In this document: piece after piece, positions 7,347 through 39,413 of the stretch
Layout of the letters: every line of letters begins with the position of its first letter
Numbering within the stretch: the first letter of the stretch is position 1
Assembly (NCBI GenBank): GCA_902611405.1
Contig: CACLZL010000001.1
Coordinates: forward strand, 124,001 to 188,000
DNA: 64,000 bases
DNA from: an uncultured Pelagibacteraceae bacterium
Lineage (GTDB): Bacteria > Pseudomonadota > Alphaproteobacteria > Pelagibacterales > Pelagibacteraceae
Reading direction: 5' to 3'
Position numbers and translations under genes: made by a program
The notes under the pieces: model-generated
Told to the model about the DNA's origin: nothing
The model's database searches: none
Seen by the model: the letters and a program-made list of their open reading frames with translations, nothing else

Positions 7347-7376
7347 TTCACATAAACATTTTAAATGTGCTATAAA
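7347..7376 (+). promoter_or_regulatory. sigma-70-like promoter of the gcvTHP operon
   Basis: TTCACA at 7347-7352 (5 of 6 to TTGACA) and TATAAA at 7371-7376 (5 of 6 to TATAAT) with an 18-bp spacer. A start about 7 bp downstream, near 7383, would fall exactly at the 5' edge of the P1 helix of the glycine riboswitch. This agreement makes it the best promoter call in the window. Confidence 0.65.
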
Positions 7377-7382
7377 TTCATA

Positions 7383-7540
7383 TACGGGAGAGACTACTTT
7401 TGTAGCGCCGAAGGAGCAACCACCCCGGAAACTCTCAGGCAAAAGGACCGTACATATTAACTCTGGAAAGAGAATTATTCTCGCCGAAGGAGCAAATCTC
7501 TCAGGCACCAAGACAGAGGGGGCACAGAAGAGTTAATATG
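7383..7540 (+). promoter_or_regulatory. tandem glycine riboswitch (gcvT leader)
   Basis: Two consecutive aptamers carry the glycine-riboswitch core (GCCGAAGGAGCAA, then CTCTCAGGCA; copies at 7407-7440 and 7482-7507). Aptamer 1 has P1 TACGG (7383-7387) with CCGTA (7448-7452), and an AAAAGGAC stretch at the 3' side. Aptamer 2 has P1 CTCTG (7461-7465) with CAGAG (7514-7518). A second, longer pairing is possible: ATATTAACTCT (7454-7464) is the exact complement of AGAGTTAATAT (7529-7539), which covers the region just before gcvT and two bases of its ATG. The two pairings compete for CTCT 7461-7464, which suggests glycine binding frees the start codon (an ON switch). Confidence 0.95.
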
Positions 7541-30803: not shown

Positions 30804-31853
30804 ATGGCAAAAATTAAAATAAAAAGAGAGCGAGTTAAATTCGCTTCTGATAATGTTGCTGGTGCTTGTCCCGAGGTATTAGATGCAATTTTAAAAGCCA
30901 ATGAAGGGGATAGCACACCTTATGGGAATGACCCAATATCAACTGAATTACAAGATAAGTTTTCAAAAATCTTTGAAAAGGAAGTAATTGTTTTTCCAAC
31001 TGCCTCAGGTACTGCAGCTAATGCTTTAGCTTTATCAACTATGACACCTTCTTATGGAAATATTTATTGTCATAAGATGTCCCATATCAATACTGATGAA
31101 TGCGGTGCACCTGAATTTTATACAGGGGGTGGAAAGTTGATTCCTTTAAATGGGGTAATGGGAAAAATAACTGCAGAGGAGTTGGATCAATCGATAGGTG
31201 GAAAAGGGATTGTTCATCATACCCAGCCTTCATCAGTCAGTATCACTCAAGTGTGTGAAACAGGGGAAGTTTATCAATTAGATGAAATCAAAAAAATTGC
31301 AGAAGTTACCCATAAGCATAACTTAAATTTACATATGGATGGCGCTAGGTTTGCTAATGCATTGGTATCTTTAGATGTAACTCCTGCTGAAATGACATGG
31401 AAATCCGGGGTTGATGTATTGTCATTTGGAGCAACTAAAAATGGATGTTTAGCAGCTGAAGCAATTATATTTTTTAAGAAAGAATTAGTAGGAGATATTG
31501 CATTTTTAATGAAAAGAGCGGGGCATTTATTATCAAAAATGCGTTTTGTTTCTGCTCAACTCGATGCATACATTTCAAATGATGTTTGGTTGAGGAACGC
31601 AAAGCACGCTAATGCAATGGGTAAAAAATTAAGTGAAGGGTTAAGTAAGCATAATGATATTGAAATTGCTTATCCAACGGAAGCAAATGAAGTATTTGCA
31701 AAATTTTCAAGAGAAAAAATAGAACATCTTAATTCTGAAGGTTATAAAATGAATGAAGAAGAATTAGATGGAAAAGCGGTAAGATTAGTTGCTGCTTGGA
31801 ATACTAAAGATAGTGATGTTGATGAATTGTTAAATACAATTAAAGCTAACTAG
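30804..31853 (+). CDS. ltaE: L-threonine aldolase / beta-eliminating lyase family
   Basis: 349 aa PLP enzyme of fold type I. Motifs: ASDNVAGACPEVLDAI at the N-terminus, EVIVFPTASGTAANALAL near 54-72, HMDGARFANAL near 175-185, and the PLP-lysine site SFGATKNGCLAAEA near 206-219. Threonine aldolase cleaves threonine (and allo-threonine) into glycine and acetaldehyde. It is 2 bp after the amidinotransferase, closing a cluster in which each enzyme can produce or use glycine. Its last 8 bp overlap the convergent small ORF at 31846, which marks the left edge of the accessory region. Confidence 0.9.
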   Translation: MAKIKIKRERVKFASDNVAGACPEVLDAILKANEGDSTPYGNDPISTELQDKFSKIFEKEVIVFPTASGTAANALALSTMTPSYGNIYCHKMSHINTDECGAPEFYTGGGKLIPLNGVMGKITAEELDQSIGGKGIVHHTQPSSVSITQVCETGEVYQLDEIKKIAEVTHKHNLNLHMDGARFANALVSLDVTPAEMTWKSGVDVLSFGATKNGCLAAEAIIFFKKELVGDIAFLMKRAGHLLSKMRFVSAQLDAYISNDVWLRNAKHANAMGKKLSEGLSKHNDIEIAYPTEANEVFAKFSREKIEHLNSEGYKMNEEELDGKAVRLVAAWNTKDSDVDELLNTIKAN

Positions 31854-32073
31854 GATTTTCTTTTAAAAACTCAATATATTTTATCACTTCATCATATTGT
31901 TCGTCAGGAATATCCTTGTAACTTGCATTGAATTTGCTTTTTACACATATAGCAACATGAGCGTAGGGGTTTCTTCCTTTAGGGTGATTTGGATGGTCCG
32001 GTAATTGCCCCACCAAATAATCGCCAGCTTCCTGAATAATTTTCCAGAGTTTCTGCGAGTTTTCTGGCGTCAT
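31846..32073 (-). CDS. small phage-antirepressor-C-terminus-like protein
   Basis: 75 aa. The sequence ends in KFNASYKDIPDEQYDEVIKYIEF, which resembles the C-terminal helix module of phage antirepressor (Rha/BRO/KilA-type) proteins, where a Y-K-x-[IL]-P-x-x-x-[FY]-D-E pattern is common. No DNA-binding N-terminal part is present, so it is either a stand-alone module or a remnant of a larger phage gene. It lies at the edge of the restriction-modification island and converges with the threonine aldolase gene. The family recognition is by eye and only moderately secure. Confidence 0.55.
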   Translation of the reverse strand: MTPENSQKLWKIIQEAGDYLVGQLPDHPNHPKGRNPYAHVAICVKSKFNASYKDIPDEQYDEVIKYIEFLKENPS

Positions 32074-32114
32074 AACTACTCAAACTTTGTTTTATCTCTA
32101 ATTTGCCTAGTCTG

Positions 32115-32125
32115 GTGCCTAGTTT
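32115..32125 (+). repeat. left copy of an 11-bp direct repeat bracketing the R-M operon
   Basis: GTGCCTAGTTT, identical to 36819-36829. It overlaps the stop codon of the helicase gene. A further GCCTAGT occurs 10 bp to the left (32105-32111). Could be a target duplication or attachment-site remnant, or chance. Confidence 0.4.
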
Positions 32126-34617
32126 TTGGCAATTAAAGTTTCTTTTTTAATTACAGTATCGAATAAACCAATATCTTTCCCTTTATGCTTATACACACCA
32201 GTATAAGACAAGCTGGAGTCCTCATACCTTTTAAATTTATATACTGCATCATTCATTAAACTTGAATTAAATACATTAAGACTAACTAATAATTCAAAAT
32301 CTTTTACAGATATTCCAGTAACTTTTTTGAACAAATTTGGCTCTAATTCAGTTATTACATCTTTTAACCTTCTTTCTCTAAAATCAGTCAGATACATAAA
32401 AATAGGAATTCGTGTGGAAAATTTTATTAATTTTTCTTGTATCTGCTTTCTTAAACTTCTGTATTCTCTTTCTTCATCTGAAAGTTTTTTCTTTTCCTTA
32501 TTTGTAAGCTCAGTTTTATTCGCTTTTTCCTTAGTTTTTTTTATTGAGTCTGATCTATTTATTATTGTTTCAATATCTTTATTTAAGTTTCTAAAACCTT
32601 CAATATTCATCAAAGCTGCCATAGCTTTTTTATTGCTCATAAGTTTTGAAAGAGTTTTATTATCTACGTTAACTAATAATGCGCTTTCCCATCTTCTAGC
32701 TAATAAAGTTGCTGAAGTACCACTCATTGAAATATCCAATATACCAGCTGCATCCATTACTTTCATAGAGCTACCATCATAAGCAAGAACTGGTAAAAAT
32801 TTTGTAAATTCCTCAACTTTTTCCTCTGCACTCTTGTCTTCCGTAGATAATCTACAGCTATAATCTGAAATTTGTTTTAGTGCTCGATCTGGTGCAAAAT
32901 CAAAAATATAACATTTTTCTTTTATAATTTGTTTCTTGTTAGGAGATAAATTATCAGGGTTATGAATTTCCCAAGGAGATTGAACCCTAAATGCTGCTTG
33001 AAAATAAGTCTCAGGACTTGATAAATTTCTAAGCATAAAAATTCCTGACCATGGTTTGACTGTTACTCCAGTTGTCAGTTTTCCACATGATAGAGTTATT
33101 GTCTTAGATTTAAGAGGTTCATCCATTGCCAACTGAACTGGTTTCAAAGCTTTAACCCCTATACCTGCATTTTTGCCTGCTGCTACAATAATTTTGTAAT
33201 CATTGTAAAAAGTGTTTTGTCTTTCCATTAGTAAATTTTTCATAGCATAGCAAGACGCAATGGTTGGCAAAAACCAGAAAGTATGATTCAAATATTTTAA
33301 AAGTCTTGAATCATAAAATGGTAATGGTGGTTTTTTTCCTCCAAGCTTTAAATTATCTTTGGTGGTTTCAAGATAAGAGCCTCTAATTAAATCTAACCAT
33401 TTTTGGACATCATTTTTATATAAAAAAGATGCTTTATCTTTTTCACCTTCAGCAGAAAAAAATGTATTTAAATCAAATTCATCGTATTCTTTATTCATTG
33501 CTATTTCTCTAATGGAGTCAGGTAGTTGATAAGTCATAAGTATCATTTTTGGCAAGGCAGCATAAGGGTTACTATTTCCTTTCCAATTAATCTTAGCACT
33601 TTGCTCATCCGTATAAGTCCAATTAAAAATCTGTTCTTCTATAAATTCACCTGACTCAATTGCTCTAAAAGGTGTTCCAGATAGGTATAAATAATGATCT
33701 GTAGTTATAGGAAGAATATCTTCATTAAAATATTTAATTCCAGCTCCTTCATGAAAATTTAATTCTTCGGTACTTTCTGACTCAAATAGATCTTTAGCGT
33801 TTTCTCTCCAAGCACCATAGTGATACTCGTCAAAAATAACACAATCCCAATTTATTTCATGAACCCACTCATTTTTCGGTTTAATTCCACCTGCTTTATT
33901 TTTTCCTAAAAAATCTTGAAAAGAACCAAAACAAACAATTGGTTTTTTTGTTTTTATTTTTTTTTTGGTAGCATTTGTTTTACTTATAAATTCCCAACCA
34001 TCAAAATCTGTATGAGTTAGTAGATCTTGTTCCCAAGCATTTTCTACGGCAGGCTTAAAAGTTAAAACTAATATTTTTTTCCAATTCATTTTAAGAGCTA
34101 ATTGGTAAGCAGTAAAAGTTTTTCCAAATCTCATTTTAGCATTCCATAGAAAGTGTGGAGTTTTAGATGGCTCATCTTTTTTAAAGGAGTCAAAATATTT
34201 TTTTGTTTTATTAATTGCCTCTATTTGTTCAGGTCGCATTTTAAAAGATAAACTTCTTCCAAATTCTAAATTTCCACCAGATTGCAAAAATCTAATTGAT
34301 GACTTAACATCTTGAACAGTACATCTAAACCATTCTCCTGCTAAATTCAAAAATCCCTTATTTTTTAAAATCTTGTGAATTTCTATATCTGTAAATGTTG
34401 ATCCATCATTTTTGACAGCTGACTCATCTATCAAGATTTCATAAGGAGCATCACCTGGTCTTAAAGTTGGATATTGTTGTCTAACCCTTTGTTTAACATC
34501 TTGAGTAGTGTAGCCAATTTTTAACAAACCTCTGTACTGAGGGTTTAAATCTTTGTAGGCATAAATTCTTGGAGAAATGTCTTTAATAACATTATTAAAA
34601 TATTTTTCACTCATCAA
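32119..34617 (-). CDS. GIY-YIG (T5orf172)-DEAD/DEAH helicase fusion, restriction subunit
   Basis: 832 aa. Residues ~17-100 form a T5orf172/GIY-YIG-like nuclease domain (IYAYKD, LLKIGYT near 31-37, IEIHKIL, GEWFR near 94-98). A superfamily 2 helicase follows: Walker A NAKMRFGKTFTA at 159-170, Walker B VIFDEYHYG near 260, motif III YLSGTPFRA, and motif VI AAFRVQSPW near 540. A lysine/glutamate-rich coiled region (around 690-725) precedes the C-terminus. It is probably the restriction/translocation subunit of the adjacent methylase genes: the helicase would move DNA and the GIY-YIG domain could cut. The nuclease assignment rests on the fold motif, and catalytic competence is unproven. It overlaps the methylase gene by 11 bp. 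Confidence 0.82.
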   Translation of the reverse strand: MMSEKYFNNVIKDISPRIYAYKDLNPQYRGLLKIGYTTQDVKQRVRQQYPTLRPGDAPYEILIDESAVKNDGSTFTDIEIHKILKNKGFLNLAGEWFRCTVQDVKSSIRFLQSGGNLEFGRSLSFKMRPEQIEAINKTKKYFDSFKKDEPSKTPHFLWNAKMRFGKTFTAYQLALKMNWKKILVLTFKPAVENAWEQDLLTHTDFDGWEFISKTNATKKKIKTKKPIVCFGSFQDFLGKNKAGGIKPKNEWVHEINWDCVIFDEYHYGAWRENAKDLFESESTEELNFHEGAGIKYFNEDILPITTDHYLYLSGTPFRAIESGEFIEEQIFNWTYTDEQSAKINWKGNSNPYAALPKMILMTYQLPDSIREIAMNKEYDEFDLNTFFSAEGEKDKASFLYKNDVQKWLDLIRGSYLETTKDNLKLGGKKPPLPFYDSRLLKYLNHTFWFLPTIASCYAMKNLLMERQNTFYNDYKIIVAAGKNAGIGVKALKPVQLAMDEPLKSKTITLSCGKLTTGVTVKPWSGIFMLRNLSSPETYFQAAFRVQSPWEIHNPDNLSPNKKQIIKEKCYIFDFAPDRALKQISDYSCRLSTEDKSAEEKVEEFTKFLPVLAYDGSSMKVMDAAGILDISMSGTSATLLARRWESALLVNVDNKTLSKLMSNKKAMAALMNIEGFRNLNKDIETIINRSDSIKKTKEKANKTELTNKEKKKLSDEEREYRSLRKQIQEKLIKFSTRIPIFMYLTDFRERRLKDVITELEPNLFKKVTGISVKDFELLVSLNVFNSSLMNDAVYKFKRYEDSSLSYTGVYKHKGKDIGLFDTVIKKETLIAKN

Positions 34618-36121
34618 AATTTTTTATTAATTCTTCAATAATAGAGATCTCATTACTATCTAATTTAAAGTTCTTAAATAATTCTTTATCTTTAATTTCT
34701 TTCTCAAAATCTACCTGTGGTACGAAACAAAATTTTTCTCTTGAAATATCTTGAGATGTAAGAGCTTGAAATAACATAAATCTTACAAACCTTGTTTTTA
34801 AATATGTTGATAGATTCTTTGCTTGCTTGAAGGTTTTAAAACTACCTGCTACAAGATAACTTTGAGTGCAAATAGTGTTTGGTTTTATAATTTCTATTTT
34901 TGAGAAAACTCTTCTTTTTCCACTTTTGTCTGCCTGTCCCGCATGTTCTGATGTAGCTTTTGAGAATATAACTTTATAGAGATCAATTAAGTCTCTTCCC
35001 GAGGTTACATTATCTTTATTTGTATAAGTTAATCCCTTACTTGTATAAACTTCAACATCATTTTTACCTGGTTTATCTTTATCCCAAAAATTAGTATGTA
35101 AACCAAACGGAGTTTGTGGACCTACAATCTCTGATAACATTTTTCCGGATTTATTATTTTTAATAACTTTATCAATAATTTTATCCGCATCATTATATCT
35201 TGTAAAAATATGTCTTTTAGCCAAGTTACGCATTGTAGTACTTTCATTTCCGTTCTGCATGCTAGTAAATTTGCAATCGCCGTTATAGTTTTTGTCCCAC
35301 AAAAAATACATTGCACCACCAGCAACTTCTACTCCGTTAAAACAATCTCTTGAGTCAGGATAATCTACCATTTCTTTAATTCTTTTATCTTTCAACATTT
35401 TATCTCTGAAACCATCTATACCCCTTCCACCAGTGAACCATCGTGAGGGAATTATCATTGAAACGTAAGAAGGTTTAAGGCTTATTGCCATTTCAACAAA
35501 TTTATGAAAGATTAAAATTGCGTAATTCTTTTTTTCGACACCAACATTTAATTGATAGGGAGGATTTCCAATTATTACGTCAAATTTCATTTGATTTTCT
35601 TTGAATAAATTATTCTGATGAATAAATTGATACGCATAACTTTCATATTTGTTACCTCTGCCTAATATTCGCTTGTTTGCACCACAGTATATACAAACTT
35701 CATCTTTCCAGATATGTTTATCTTCATCATATCTAATATTTCCTTCTTCGTTGTTAAAAATTGATGCGATAGAATATTTATTTTTGGCGTTTTTTGAACA
35801 GTACAAAGATCTTCTAGCAATCAAAGATGTTAACTCGGTTGTAGCAATTCCAAATACTTGATTCTTTAAAATATGATTTATTCTTTTTTCCAGATTGGGG
35901 ATTTCCTTTTCTAAGCCCAAGATGAGTCTTTTAGTAATTTCTCTTAAAAAAACTCCAGATTTAGTACATGGATCAAGAAATTTAGAATTTTTATTTTTCC
36001 ATAAAGACTTAGGTAGCTTATCTAGCATAGAATTAGCTAAAGTGGGTGATGTAAATACTTCATCACTGCTAAGATTAGCAATACAATTAAGAACATCTGG
36101 ATTATAATTTACATTAAACAT
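34607..36121 (-). CDS. N6-adenine DNA methyltransferase (Eco57I-like) of the R-M operon
   Basis: 504 aa. After an EVFTSPTLANSML segment it has a motif I region FLDPCTKSGVFLREI (around residues 48-62), an unusual form in which the G-x-G turn is K-S-G. Motif IV NPPY is intact in VIIGNPPYQLN near 185, the catalytic signature for N6-adenine methylation. A CxxC (VCIYCGANK) near 142 may bind zinc. The C-terminal half (GRDLIDLYKVIFSKA, NTICTQSYLVAG) looks like the target-recognition part of Eco57I/type I-like methylases. It overlaps both neighbours, so the three genes form one translational unit. Confidence 0.83.
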   Translation of the reverse strand: MFNVNYNPDVLNCIANLSSDEVFTSPTLANSMLDKLPKSLWKNKNSKFLDPCTKSGVFLREITKRLILGLEKEIPNLEKRINHILKNQVFGIATTELTSLIARRSLYCSKNAKNKYSIASIFNNEEGNIRYDEDKHIWKDEVCIYCGANKRILGRGNKYESYAYQFIHQNNLFKENQMKFDVIIGNPPYQLNVGVEKKNYAILIFHKFVEMAISLKPSYVSMIIPSRWFTGGRGIDGFRDKMLKDKRIKEMVDYPDSRDCFNGVEVAGGAMYFLWDKNYNGDCKFTSMQNGNESTTMRNLAKRHIFTRYNDADKIIDKVIKNNKSGKMLSEIVGPQTPFGLHTNFWDKDKPGKNDVEVYTSKGLTYTNKDNVTSGRDLIDLYKVIFSKATSEHAGQADKSGKRRVFSKIEIIKPNTICTQSYLVAGSFKTFKQAKNLSTYLKTRFVRFMLFQALTSQDISREKFCFVPQVDFEKEIKDKELFKNFKLDSNEISIIEELIKNFDE

Positions 36122-36755
36122 TTTCTATTTCTGTATAAATAATTGGTTCAAAAACTTTTATTGGAGGTGGAATAATAACCTCTTCACCTTTTTCAGAGAA
36201 TAACGTGTCTTCTTCATATGGTCTATAAGATAGTAGGTCAGCAAGTGTATAATCTGATCTTTGGACCAAACTACCTTTTACAAAACTCCACTCAGAAAAT
36301 ATAATAGGTTTTTTTTTATTAGGTTCTGTTAAAGTTAAAGCATCTCCCCAGAGTATATTTCTTGAGATTATATATTTAATTGAAGATAAAAACTTGGAAT
36401 TAGACGTAGAAAAAAATTTTTTTTCGTATATATCCTTGAAATGTTTAAAAAGTCTTTCCCTGCAACTTAGCACATTATCTTTTAGTATCTCTACACCATA
36501 TAAGCTACTTATAACTTGAAAAGAATATCTCTCATACTCTATTTGACTATTGCTATATTTTTTTTTTACAATCTCTAACTTTCGTTCTAAAACTTTTATA
36601 AGAAAATTTCCATCACCACATGCTGGCTCTAAAAACCTTGATTCTAAACGCTCTGTTTCATCTTTTACAAGATTAAGCATAGACTCAACTTCTTTTGGGT
36701 TGGTAAATACTTCTCCAAAATCTTTAATTCTGTTTTTATTTTTTTTTTCTGACAC
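36114..36755 (-). CDS. small N6-methylase-like protein lacking NPPY
   Basis: 213 aa. It begins with FGEVFTNPKEVESML followed by a canonical SAM motif I, FLEPACGDGNFLIKVLE (41-57), and SRNILWGDALT (a motif III-like acidic turn) near 130-140. No NPPY catalytic motif occurs, so by itself it probably cannot methylate. The start is GTG at 36755; ten A residues follow within the first codons. The next gene repeats the same EVFT-P plus motif I layout, so the pair looks like a duplicated or heterodimeric methylase rather than one gene split by a frameshift. It may bind SAM and act as partner or specificity subunit. Confidence 0.72.
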   Translation of the reverse strand: MSEKKNKNRIKDFGEVFTNPKEVESMLNLVKDETERLESRFLEPACGDGNFLIKVLERKLEIVKKKYSNSQIEYERYSFQVISSLYGVEILKDNVLSCRERLFKHFKDIYEKKFFSTSNSKFLSSIKYIISRNILWGDALTLTEPNKKKPIIFSEWSFVKGSLVQRSDYTLADLLSYRPYEEDTLFSEKGEEVIIPPPIKVFEPIIYTEIENV

Positions 36756-36818: not shown

Positions 36819-36829
36819 GTGCCTAGTTT
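36819..36829 (+). repeat. right copy of the 11-bp direct repeat bracketing the R-M operon
   Basis: GTGCCTAGTTT, identical to 32115-32125, in the 186-bp gap upstream of the methylase operon. The gap otherwise holds the operator-like repeat and AT-rich sequence with no recognisable gene or RNA. Confidence 0.4.
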
Positions 36830-36941: not shown

Positions 36942-37409
36942 TTATCTAAAAAATAAACTTTTTCTAATATCTATAATTTCTCTGATTTGTTTGTCTTTAA
37001 TAGCATTCCAAGAAACAAATAAAGTACATAATTGATATAAGGCAAATATCTCGTTTTTTTGATTTTGAGATAAATCACTATCTGCCTCTACATAGTTTTC
37101 AAAATAAGAAATATTATTTCTCGCACAATTTAAATAATATTTACAAGCATCTGTTACTGTAGCCGTTGACCACCAGTTTGAATCTCTTAAAAGAGCAGAT
37201 ATTTCTTGGTAGAAAGAACTTGTTTCAGAAATAGCCAAATCCTTTTGAACATTTTCTGAAAATTGATCTAATTCAAATTGAATTAAAGCTAATATCTTTT
37301 TTTCGCTACTTCTCTTTACAAGTAGTTCAATGACGTTTTTATACGACATTGATTGGATTTTATTCCAATTATCAAAAAAATCGTTTGGTGCTTTATTTGA
37401 ATCTCCCAT
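36942..37409 (-). CDS. hypothetical protein, accessory region
   Basis: 155 aa, not recognised. It is soluble and predicted mostly helical, with no signal peptide or membrane segment. It is rich in aromatic and acidic residues (SNWWSTATVTDACKYYLN near 91-108; NYVEADSDLSQNQK). The ORF has coding-like composition, starts with ATG (MGDSNKAPNDFF) and lies 36 bp after the gene at 37446 in the same direction. It is located between a defence-like operon and a metabolic cluster. No function can be given. Confidence 0.6.
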   Translation of the reverse strand: MGDSNKAPNDFFDNWNKIQSMSYKNVIELLVKRSSEKKILALIQFELDQFSENVQKDLAISETSSFYQEISALLRDSNWWSTATVTDACKYYLNCARNNISYFENYVEADSDLSQNQKNEIFALYQLCTLFVSWNAIKDKQIREIIDIRKSLFFR

Positions 37410-37445
37410 TTCTAACTATTTAAGCGACATAAACATAGACACTAA

Positions 37446-38129
37446 TTATTTATTTAAAAAATTAGCCTCAAAAGCAATATTTAAAAAAGACCTAATATTC
37501 TCTAAGGAATTAATTTTGGATTGATTGATTTCTCCATTTTCTTTTATTTTAGGAATTAATTTAAAAATATCATTAATAATATTCTTTCTTGTTTCTTGAA
37601 CTACTTCTTTAATTTTTGATACTCCTAAATTTAAACAACATTCCTCAAAGATTATATGTGTTAAAAAAGATATCGAATAAGTTTGAGCGATTAAAGCACC
37701 ATTAGAAAAATCTTTTTCTTGAGAAATGCCTGATTTAGAAATGATTGGGTCATAAAGAATCAAATATTTTAAGTAGTTATTTAAATTATTCTCAGTCAGA
37801 TTAGTAAAAGGCAAATATCTCATATTACTTAGATCTTGAGGATCAGGATAAAGTATAATTGGAAACAACGAGGTTGCTGTTAAAACCTCATTAAATATAA
37901 TATTTTTAGTTGTTTTAATCTGGTGGGTTAAATCTTTACTTTTAGTAATTTGTAAAGAGTAATTTTTAACAATTTTTATAATTTCTTTTGCTTTAATTTT
38001 ATCAGGATCATTTTGAATCCAGCTATACATTGGATCGTGTAATCTTTCATCTAGCTCTTCAAGATTTAAATTTTTAAACTTATTTATTGTTTCTTTACAA
38101 ATTTGAAAAATAAAATCTTGATCCAACAT
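37446..38129 (-). CDS. hypothetical protein, accessory region
   Basis: 227 aa, not recognised. It is helical and soluble, with acidic N-terminal half (LNLEELDERLHDPMYSWIQ) and a hydrophobic central stretch (LTATSLFPIILYPDP, residues ~86-100) too short and polar-flanked to be a clear membrane helix. A CC pair occurs in IFEECCLNLGV. It lies 27 bp downstream of a 51-aa ORF and 36 bp upstream of the 155-aa ORF on the same strand. The three may form one small operon. No enzymatic motif is visible. Confidence 0.6.
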   Translation of the reverse strand: MLDQDFIFQICKETINKFKNLNLEELDERLHDPMYSWIQNDPDKIKAKEIIKIVKNYSLQITKSKDLTHQIKTTKNIIFNEVLTATSLFPIILYPDPQDLSNMRYLPFTNLTENNLNNYLKYLILYDPIISKSGISQEKDFSNGALIAQTYSISFLTHIIFEECCLNLGVSKIKEVVQETRKNIINDIFKLIPKIKENGEINQSKINSLENIRSFLNIAFEANFLNK

Positions 38130-38156
38130 TTTAAAATTTACACATTTTATTAAGTC

Positions 38157-38312
38157 TTAGTCATCATCAAGAATATTTTTATGATCAACTCTACCTTTAT
38201 GGGCAATTAAAACTAAATAGTCATATAAAAAAGTATTTTTTATGAACTCTTTTTCTTTTGATGAAAGTTTGTTAATTCTTTCAAGTTCTTTTTGAGCACT
38301 TTTTGAGTTCAT
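38157..38312 (-). CDS. small hypothetical protein (51 aa), missing from the ORF track
   Basis: ATG at 38312-38310, stop TAA at 38159-38157. The product starts MNSKSAQKELERINKLSSKE and ends in DDD; it is charged and helical, with an amphipathic N-terminal half and acidic tail. It fits between the Gfo/Idh gene (30 bp) and the 227-aa gene (27 bp) on the same strand, which is the normal spacing for this genome, and would fill an otherwise unusual 213-bp gap. No family is recognised; an antitoxin-like or regulatory helper is only a guess. Confidence 0.5.
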   Translation of the reverse strand: MNSKSAQKELERINKLSSKEKEFIKNTFLYDYLVLIAHKGRVDHKNILDDD

Positions 38313-38342
38313 AGAATAAATTATAATAAATTAATTGTAATA

Positions 38343-39413
38343 TCAAGGTAACCAAGAATTATATAAAGGATTATCTTTATTGATTGGAAGTTTAATATTC
38401 TTATTTTGTCTAGAAGAGTCATACACAGCAGTTACAAATTCTAGTGATTTTCTAGCATCTGATAAATTTACCTCATCACTAGGAGATCCATCTAGTTTGT
38501 TTGCAATTTCTTCAAACATACCTGCATACCATGATTTTGGTTCTTTTACTTTTGATAGTACTTCATCTATTTGAGCTTGAGTTATAGGAGCTCTTGGTAA
38601 AAAGTCCCATTCATCATCAGCTGGACTATATGGCTTATCTGGTGATGCGCCAGACTCAGCTGTTAATCCTTCAAAACAAAATCGAAGTCTACTAGTATCA
38701 TTTGCTGCACCCAATGTAATTGAACTTGTCACTAATGTGCCGTTTTCCATTTCAATAGAAAGGGCAGCACAATCCTCAACTTCAATATCATTTACTCTAG
38801 TCGTTAATTTTGCAAAAACATTTGAAACAGGACCTAGGATCATACTAATTAAATCATGAATATGAATAGAGTGACTTAAAATAGCCCCACCTTGTTCACC
38901 TTCCCAAGTTCCTCTCCAAGGTTTTGAATAGTAATCTTTTCCTCTATTCCAATGAGTTTCTAAAGAAGCAACCAATGGTTTGCCTGCTAAACCAGATTTA
39001 ATTAATGCTTTTATTTTTGAAAATCCTAGACCATATCGATATTGAAATACTGGAAAAATAACTTTACCAGTTTCTTTGCTGATTTTTTCTAATTCATCTA
39101 CTTCTTTAAGACTTGAGACTAAAGGTTTTTCACAAATTACATGCTTTCCAGCCTTCATGGCTTTTTTACAAGCAGAAAAATGTAAATGAGGTGGCAGACA
39201 AATATCAATGATATCAATTTCTTTAACTTTTAATACATCGTCAAAATTTAGAGAAACTTTTGTCTCAGTATTTGATTGTAATATTTTATCAATAGCTTCC
39301 CTAGTTAAACCGCATAATGTGTGAACATTAAATCTCTCAGATACTTTTTGAAAATCTTCAAAATGTTTTGCCCCTATATTGGTTCCTATTATTGCAACTT
39401 GATATTTTTTCAT
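38343..39413 (-). CDS. Gfo/Idh/MocA-family oxidoreductase
   Basis: 356 aa. The N-terminal Rossmann fold (AIIGTNIGAKHFEDF) is followed by the family hallmark CEKPLVSS near residues 93-100, where the lysine-proline loop contacts the nicotinamide. The C-terminal alpha/beta domain carries GGAILSHSIHIHDLI near 174-188, with the His used for substrate or catalysis. It oxidises or reduces a sugar, inositol or amino-sugar-like substrate with NAD(P). It overlaps the second Gfo/Idh gene by 4 bp; two paralogues plus a PhyH dioxygenase suggest successive steps on one polyol or sugar-acid substrate, which is unidentified. Confidence 0.88.
   Translation of the reverse strand: MKKYQVAIIGTNIGAKHFEDFQKVSERFNVHTLCGLTREAIDKILQSNTETKVSLNFDDVLKVKEIDIIDICLPPHLHFSACKKAMKAGKHVICEKPLVSSLKEVDELEKISKETGKVIFPVFQYRYGLGFSKIKALIKSGLAGKPLVASLETHWNRGKDYYSKPWRGTWEGEQGGAILSHSIHIHDLISMILGPVSNVFAKLTTRVNDIEVEDCAALSIEMENGTLVTSSITLGAANDTSRLRFCFEGLTAESGASPDKPYSPADDEWDFLPRAPITQAQIDEVLSKVKEPKSWYAGMFEEIANKLDGSPSDEVNLSDARKSLEFVTAVYDSSRQNKNIKLPINKDNPLYNSWLP

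Follow-up and report, generated by a model that had tools for sequence, protein, structure and literature searches.

Three adjacent genes of unknown family in a marine Pelagibacter probably represent independent layers of a hypervariable locus with a candidate satellite attachment site

Introduction

Three small genes on the minus strand of a Pelagibacteraceae genome, encoding proteins of 51, 227, and 155 amino acids (aa) and referred to as u51, u227, and u155, probably represent three independent layers of a hypervariable Pelagibacter locus and not one system. Briefly, u155 would be a resident, genus-restricted gene for a helical protein, usually located between a PhyH-Gfo gene string and a gene for a 75-aa protein (o75); u51-u227 would be a recent, private, and AT-rich insert, acquired most likely via recombination between conserved flanks; and the neighboring restriction-modification (R-M) operon would have arrived separately, carried by a cassette inserted at the o75 5′ end. 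The sequence features of this 5′ end most readily suggest an attachment site (attB) for satellite-type integrases, of which integrase-less cassettes would also take advantage. The features of the locus are listed in Table 1, and "the window" denotes the whole 64,000-nucleotide stretch of DNA that was analyzed. Elsewhere in the window, a glycine riboswitch (Rfam RF00504, 70 bits) is found at 7375-7460, before a gcvT-like gene.

Table 1. Coordinates of the features discussed, given as positions in the window.
Feature	Position	Strand	Description
o75 (75-aa gene)	31846..32073	-	present here in all AmdT-anchored relatives examined; 5′ end is the proposed insertion target
First 58 bp of o75	32016..32073	-	duplicated target, proposed attB core (about 20 codons)
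Putative attR arm of R-M insertion	32088..32123	-	ACTAGGCACCAGACTAGGCAAATTAGAGATAAAACA; overlaps stop codon of the 832-aa gene
R-M operon	32119..36755	-	separate insertion between u155 and o75
Putative left arm-repeat copy of R-M insertion	36819..36828	-	AACTAGGCAC; 10-11 nt match, weak alone
u155	36942..37409	-	Pelagibacter-only conserved helical protein, resident at the locus
u51-u227 insertion	37410..38345	-	replaces the 11-bp GfoA-u155 spacer
u227	37446..38129	-	orphan, private to the window genome in all collections searched
u51	38157..38312	-	small charged protein; one clear relative in the genus, without u227
GfoA (Gfo/Idh/MocA oxidoreductase)	38343..39413	-	Pfam PF01408; upstream neighbor of u155 in relatives by synteny

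Coding Status of the Three Genes

The original prediction described three minus-strand open reading frames (ORFs) of unknown family, separated by gaps of 27 and 36 bp and bordering defense genes, and all of these points were borne out, the R-M operon lying on the far side of u155. All three ORFs look coding-like, with codon-usage log-likelihoods of 0.295 (u51), 0.164 (u227), and 0.155 (u155) bits per codon that fall within or close to the range of the window genes (mean, 0.284; lowest training gene, 0.161), and four of five spurious antisense control ORFs scored negative. Shuffling of the interval produced no ORF of 227 aa and produced one of 51 aa in 0.6-1.7% of trials. Scans of u51, u227, and u155 against Pfam, NCBIfam, PADLOC, and PHROGs returned sub-threshold noise only, including for toxin, antitoxin, and defense families, and searches of PDB sequences yielded no match.

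A Private Insertion at the GfoA-u155 Seam

The u51-u227 insertion comprises 936 bp with a GC content of 22.9% vs. 29.5% for the window, and the window GfoA is three codons shorter at its end than GfoA in relatives. None of the 78 other u155 loci contains u51 or u227, and the insertion is regarded as derived because the nearest relatives of the window u155 (97-98% identity) all have GfoA directly upstream. No credible relative of u227 was found in sampled genomes (41 + 300 + 297) or among phages, plasmids, viral contigs, and genome contigs. The tool that detected no u227 relative in the genome contigs did detect 78 of u155 there; u155 was given as an alignment, so that the two scans differ in sensitivity. 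One u227 match, a 225-aa ORF in contig L184, was rejected from its gene context and from the sequence of this ORF, which we take to be a histidine-pathway enzyme, and the remaining weak u227 matches were rejected as short or as containing stops. The single-sequence AlphaFold model of u227 (pLDDT 40) is unreliable.

The 51-aa gene, which was predicted although it was unlisted, has a relative of 53 aa in contig C42 of another Pelagibacter genome, G017 (57-58% identity, E 2.8e-15). The two genes share 20 of 48 codons, and 22 of 47 base differences are located at third codon positions; u51 is considered a real gene because this relative exists and the differences are concentrated at third positions. 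In G017 (L200:3300-4225), the genes next to the u51 relative encode a membrane-like protein of 72 aa and a protein of 55 aa; the group lies upstream of a tRNA-Met-like sequence, lacks u227, and possibly marks another insertion hotspot. Weak u51 matches in L021 and L037 were rejected as antisense to core genes. Judged from this one relative on a 4.2-kb contig, the occurrence of u51 without u227 argues against an obligate u51-u227 pair. The window's exact gene combination, like u227 itself, has been seen once, and the history of u51-u227 proposed here depends on a single genome with 88% completeness.

The same seam is occupied differently elsewhere: in L048:6875-9749 (with u155 turned to the plus strand) and 24 other loci, a different insert lies between PhyH or GfoA and u155, encoding on the opposite strand a VCBS-repeat protein, a 230-aa secreted-looking protein, and a CDP-alcohol transferase-like protein. 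It could be supposed that u51-u227 alone is a two-gene defense or toxin-antitoxin cassette that arrived at a defense-rich locus, since the pair is private and AT-rich and the other side of the locus holds many R-M and helicase cassettes; this is unlikely given that the u51 relative has no adjoining u227, that relatives carry the above VCBS-repeat and CDP-alcohol transferase-like genes as non-defense cargo at the GfoA-u155 seam, and that the pair gave no sequence match or reliable structural match. The u51-u227 insertion lies at a different seam from the o75 cassettes described below and has no ends of their kind. Our best guess for u51 and u227 is a carried accessory function that is possibly phage-related.

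A Cassette Family at the 5′ End of o75

Inserts larger than 300 bp are present between u155 and o75 in 39 of the 78 loci, and their ORFs of at least 80 aa form 93 clusters (73 cluster representatives after two loci with another context were left out). The cargo includes type IIG and type III R-M genes, helicases, a photolyase-like protein, and secreted-looking proteins; defense genes seem enriched among it, as an impression formed without a matched control set. Each of 22 chromosomal elements carries at its left end a second copy of the first 58 bp of o75 and has an intact o75 at its right end, so that a target duplication flanks the insert and the target gene is rebuilt. The o75 fragment in these elements is followed by a conserved leader of ~110 bp (GGGGTGCTAGTGGTACACC...CACACTA repeats). 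Close to both ends of each element there is a tandem arm repeat, consisting of ACTA and about six element-specific bases, twice. The mean longest string shared by the arm repeats is 15.2 nt within an element (21 elements) vs. 7.7 nt between elements, and the observed pairing was reached in none of 10,000 permutations. An empty form is seen at L134:1364-1591, where 227 bp hold an o75 fragment, the leader, and the arm repeats and no cargo; tandem elements are found in L127, L138, and L148, and the o75 fragment likewise marks cassettes in genomes that lack u155 (e.g., L093).

The R-M operon of the window is probably, though not certainly, a cassette of this o75 type, as judged from its ends. It comprises genes for a 213-aa methyltransferase (MTase)-like protein, a 504-aa Eco57I-like MTase, and an 832-aa GIY-YIG/ResIII protein, an unusually split layout in which the 213-aa protein resembles an N-terminal MTase piece and the GIY-YIG domain is of the T5orf172 kind. 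The right arm is clear and fits the cassette family, whereas the left end lost the o75 fragment that is usual there and shares an 11-mer with a shuffle P of 0.015. The 40 bp after the window u155 resemble an older insertion common to L145, L156, and others. The R-M operon is absent from all 78 other u155 loci, as are u51 and u227, so that the conservation of the trio and of its link to R-M genes, suggested as a check on the original prediction, was not observed.

Two Satellite-Like Contigs That Pair the o75 Core With an Integrase Gene

L187 was the single viral contig retrieved by the o75 core, and a relaxed core-plus-leader pattern revealed no other. L187 (9,070 bp) encodes a 581-aa tyrosine integrase (PHROG integrase, E 1e-22; Pfam Phage_integrase, E 8.6e-6, just short of the cut-off), and a second contig, L188 (9,003 bp), encodes an integrase with 62% identity to that of L187; these are the only two autonomous elements found. 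The o75 core lies just upstream of the integrase gene in L187, and the same arrangement with a more diverged core is found in L188. In both contigs, the core and arm repeats beside the tyrosine integrase form a putative attP (L187:5540-7469 and L188:4880-6841), of which an arm runs into the integrase gene, and the L188 arm is identical to the cassette arms of L127 and L129 over 37-38 nt. Terminal direct repeats of 29 bp (L187) and 81 bp (L188) are consistent with circular molecules. Other genes of the two contigs encode an AEP primase(-helicase) and a RusA-like protein, and seven of the larger L187 ORFs, a part of all ORFs in the two contigs, gave no structural-family match. Relatives of the two integrases were found in none of the 78 u155 loci and in 5 of 250 genomes of the genus, at least one of them broken (G682).

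From these arrangements, we infer integrase activity and mobilization in trans. The candidate tyrosine integrase of ~9-kb satellite-like elements would recombine an attP, in the order arm repeats, o75 5′ core, leader, and arm repeats, with an attB formed by o75 codons 1-20, and would thereby rebuild o75; the chromosomal cassettes retain attL and attR, their element-specific arm repeats being paired across the two ends. The cassettes were probably moved in trans, because they encode no relative of the L187 and L188 integrases.

SAR11 bacteria recombine readily, and the o75 duplications and cassettes might instead be products of homologous recombination and gene-scale duplication without an integrase, with which the absence of the left-end o75 fragment from several elements would agree. 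This explanation appears improbable in view of the conserved leader, of the element-specific arm repeats that match at both ends, and of the recurrence of this layout next to the integrase genes of L187 and L188, which both look circular. We lean, by a modest degree, toward a reading in which cassettes without an integrase copy the attachment sites of specific satellite integrases, core and element-specific arm repeats included, and enter the o75 5′ end in trans, much of the exchangeable SAR11 R-M repertoire at this locus rides on phage satellites, and u51-u227 may be an overflow of cargo into the adjacent seam.

u155 as a Resident Gene

Relatives of u155 number 78 in the species-level genome collection, all of them Pelagibacteraceae or Pelagibacter by record title, with identities of mostly 88-98% and outliers at 74-76%. 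The gene is present in 15 of 197 sampled genomes of the order, all of the same genus, and in 16 of 201 sampled genomes of the genus, many of which are incomplete. Its conservation equals that of the surrounding metabolic genes. An AlphaFold2 model of u155 is all-helical (pLDDT 85), and a fold search with this model in PDB and BFVD returned no match. A further copy with 57% identity in G047 (L053:8327-10127) belongs to another variable region, where it comes directly after a pair of type IV pilin-like genes. Because pilin-like genes also adjoin the L115 copy, a role in pili was considered, but it was abandoned after L177 proved to have no such genes; the L177 copy sits between what are presumably nadA-like and ygfZ-like genes.

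Across the 78 loci, GfoA lies 11 bp upstream of u155 in 36, whereas 25 have a VCBS-repeat gene and 10 have PhyH in the upstream position, a methyltransferase-like gene being another such neighbor; downstream, an intact o75 follows directly in 34 and an o75 5′ fragment in 16. Pairwise identities of u155 correlate with those of GfoA (Spearman 0.57) more than with those of AmdT (0.24) and o75 (0.13). The suggestion that the genes are the tail of a Gfo/Idh operon thus holds in part for u155 and fails for u51 and u227. That all three form the distal end of this operon and serve sugar metabolism is very unlikely: the position of u155 directly after GfoA and its tracking of the GfoA sequence would fit, but u51 and u227 are missing from those loci, and u155 lacks the constant GfoA association required of an operon member, as it also follows the other genes named above and lies far from Gfo genes in L177 and G047.

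The regular spacing that had drawn attention to the trio carries no meaning, given that u155 of relatives abuts GfoA or o75 by 11 bp without u51 and u227, and the adjacency to the R-M operon is retained here for u155 (186 bp away) and is not claimed for u51 and u227. The proposed toxin-antitoxin or phage-defense arrangement did not hold up, as u155 occurs without u51 and u227 in 78 of 78 other loci, the u51 relative occurs without u227, and u227 is unique; the conserved adjacency needed for a type II toxin-antitoxin module was found neither for u51-u227-u155 nor for u51-u227. Accordingly, that the three genes are one such module tied to the R-M operon is scarcely credible, the tight spacing, common strand, and R-M neighbor standing against the lack of co-occurrence in 78 relatives, the u51 relative without u227, the lack of any PADLOC, Pfam, NCBIfam, or PHROGs family match, and the conservation of u155 at the level of its metabolic neighbors.

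Comparison With Known Mobile Elements

With regard to VEIMEs (virion-encapsidated integrative mobile elements) and PICMIs, L187 and L188 are similar in that they are small, come from a viral contig collection, carry a tyrosine integrase and a primase, and show no recognizable capsid genes among the ORFs scanned; the VEIME details used for this comparison are general background. They differ in that their putative attachment site is the 5′ end of a small protein gene, and the o75 chromosomal cassettes differ in carrying R-M or other cargo without an integrase of the L187/L188 type. Flexible genomic islands in SAR11 and in other streamlined bacterioplankton likewise have a fixed position and replaceable cargo that includes defense genes, whereas the o75 locus allows both an exact target site and a candidate integrase to be specified. 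VEIMEs have been named as a marine satellite family (PMC11389934), and marine satellites (VEIMEs, tycheposons, and PICMIs) and integrase-less integron arrays have been covered in several articles (PMC11389934; PMC10872708; PMC10803314).

Tycheposons in Methylophilaceae have been described in streamlined marine bacteria with a tyrosine recombinase and variable cargo (PMC10872708), and the o75 system shares these properties with the tycheposons of Prochlorococcus and Methylophilaceae. By contrast, tycheposons sit at tRNA genes and carry their recombinase, whereas the window contains no tRNA, the target is the 75-aa protein gene o75, and the 78 u155 loci have no relative of the L187 and L188 integrases. 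CALINs are integron cassette arrays without an integrase (PMC11389934) and, together with cis-mobilizable elements, resemble the o75 cassettes as cargo units that lack their own integrase, form tandem arrays, and are presumably mobilized in trans; however, the boundaries found for o75 cassettes are phage-type attL/attR direct repeats with a long core and arm sites, whereas CALINs have attC hairpins. Literature searches, which covered articles other than the main VEIME paper, yielded no description of cassettes at SAR11 o75.

Perspective

For the three genes themselves, the result is mostly negative: closeness to R-M genes does not turn unknown genes into a defense module. SAR11 is among the most abundant bacterial groups of the ocean, and the exchange of its defense and other genes is at issue. 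The surrounding locus is of more consequence than the trio in this respect: with its exact target site, its candidate integrase, and the pairing of arm repeats as a matching rule, the movement of cassettes becomes directly testable.
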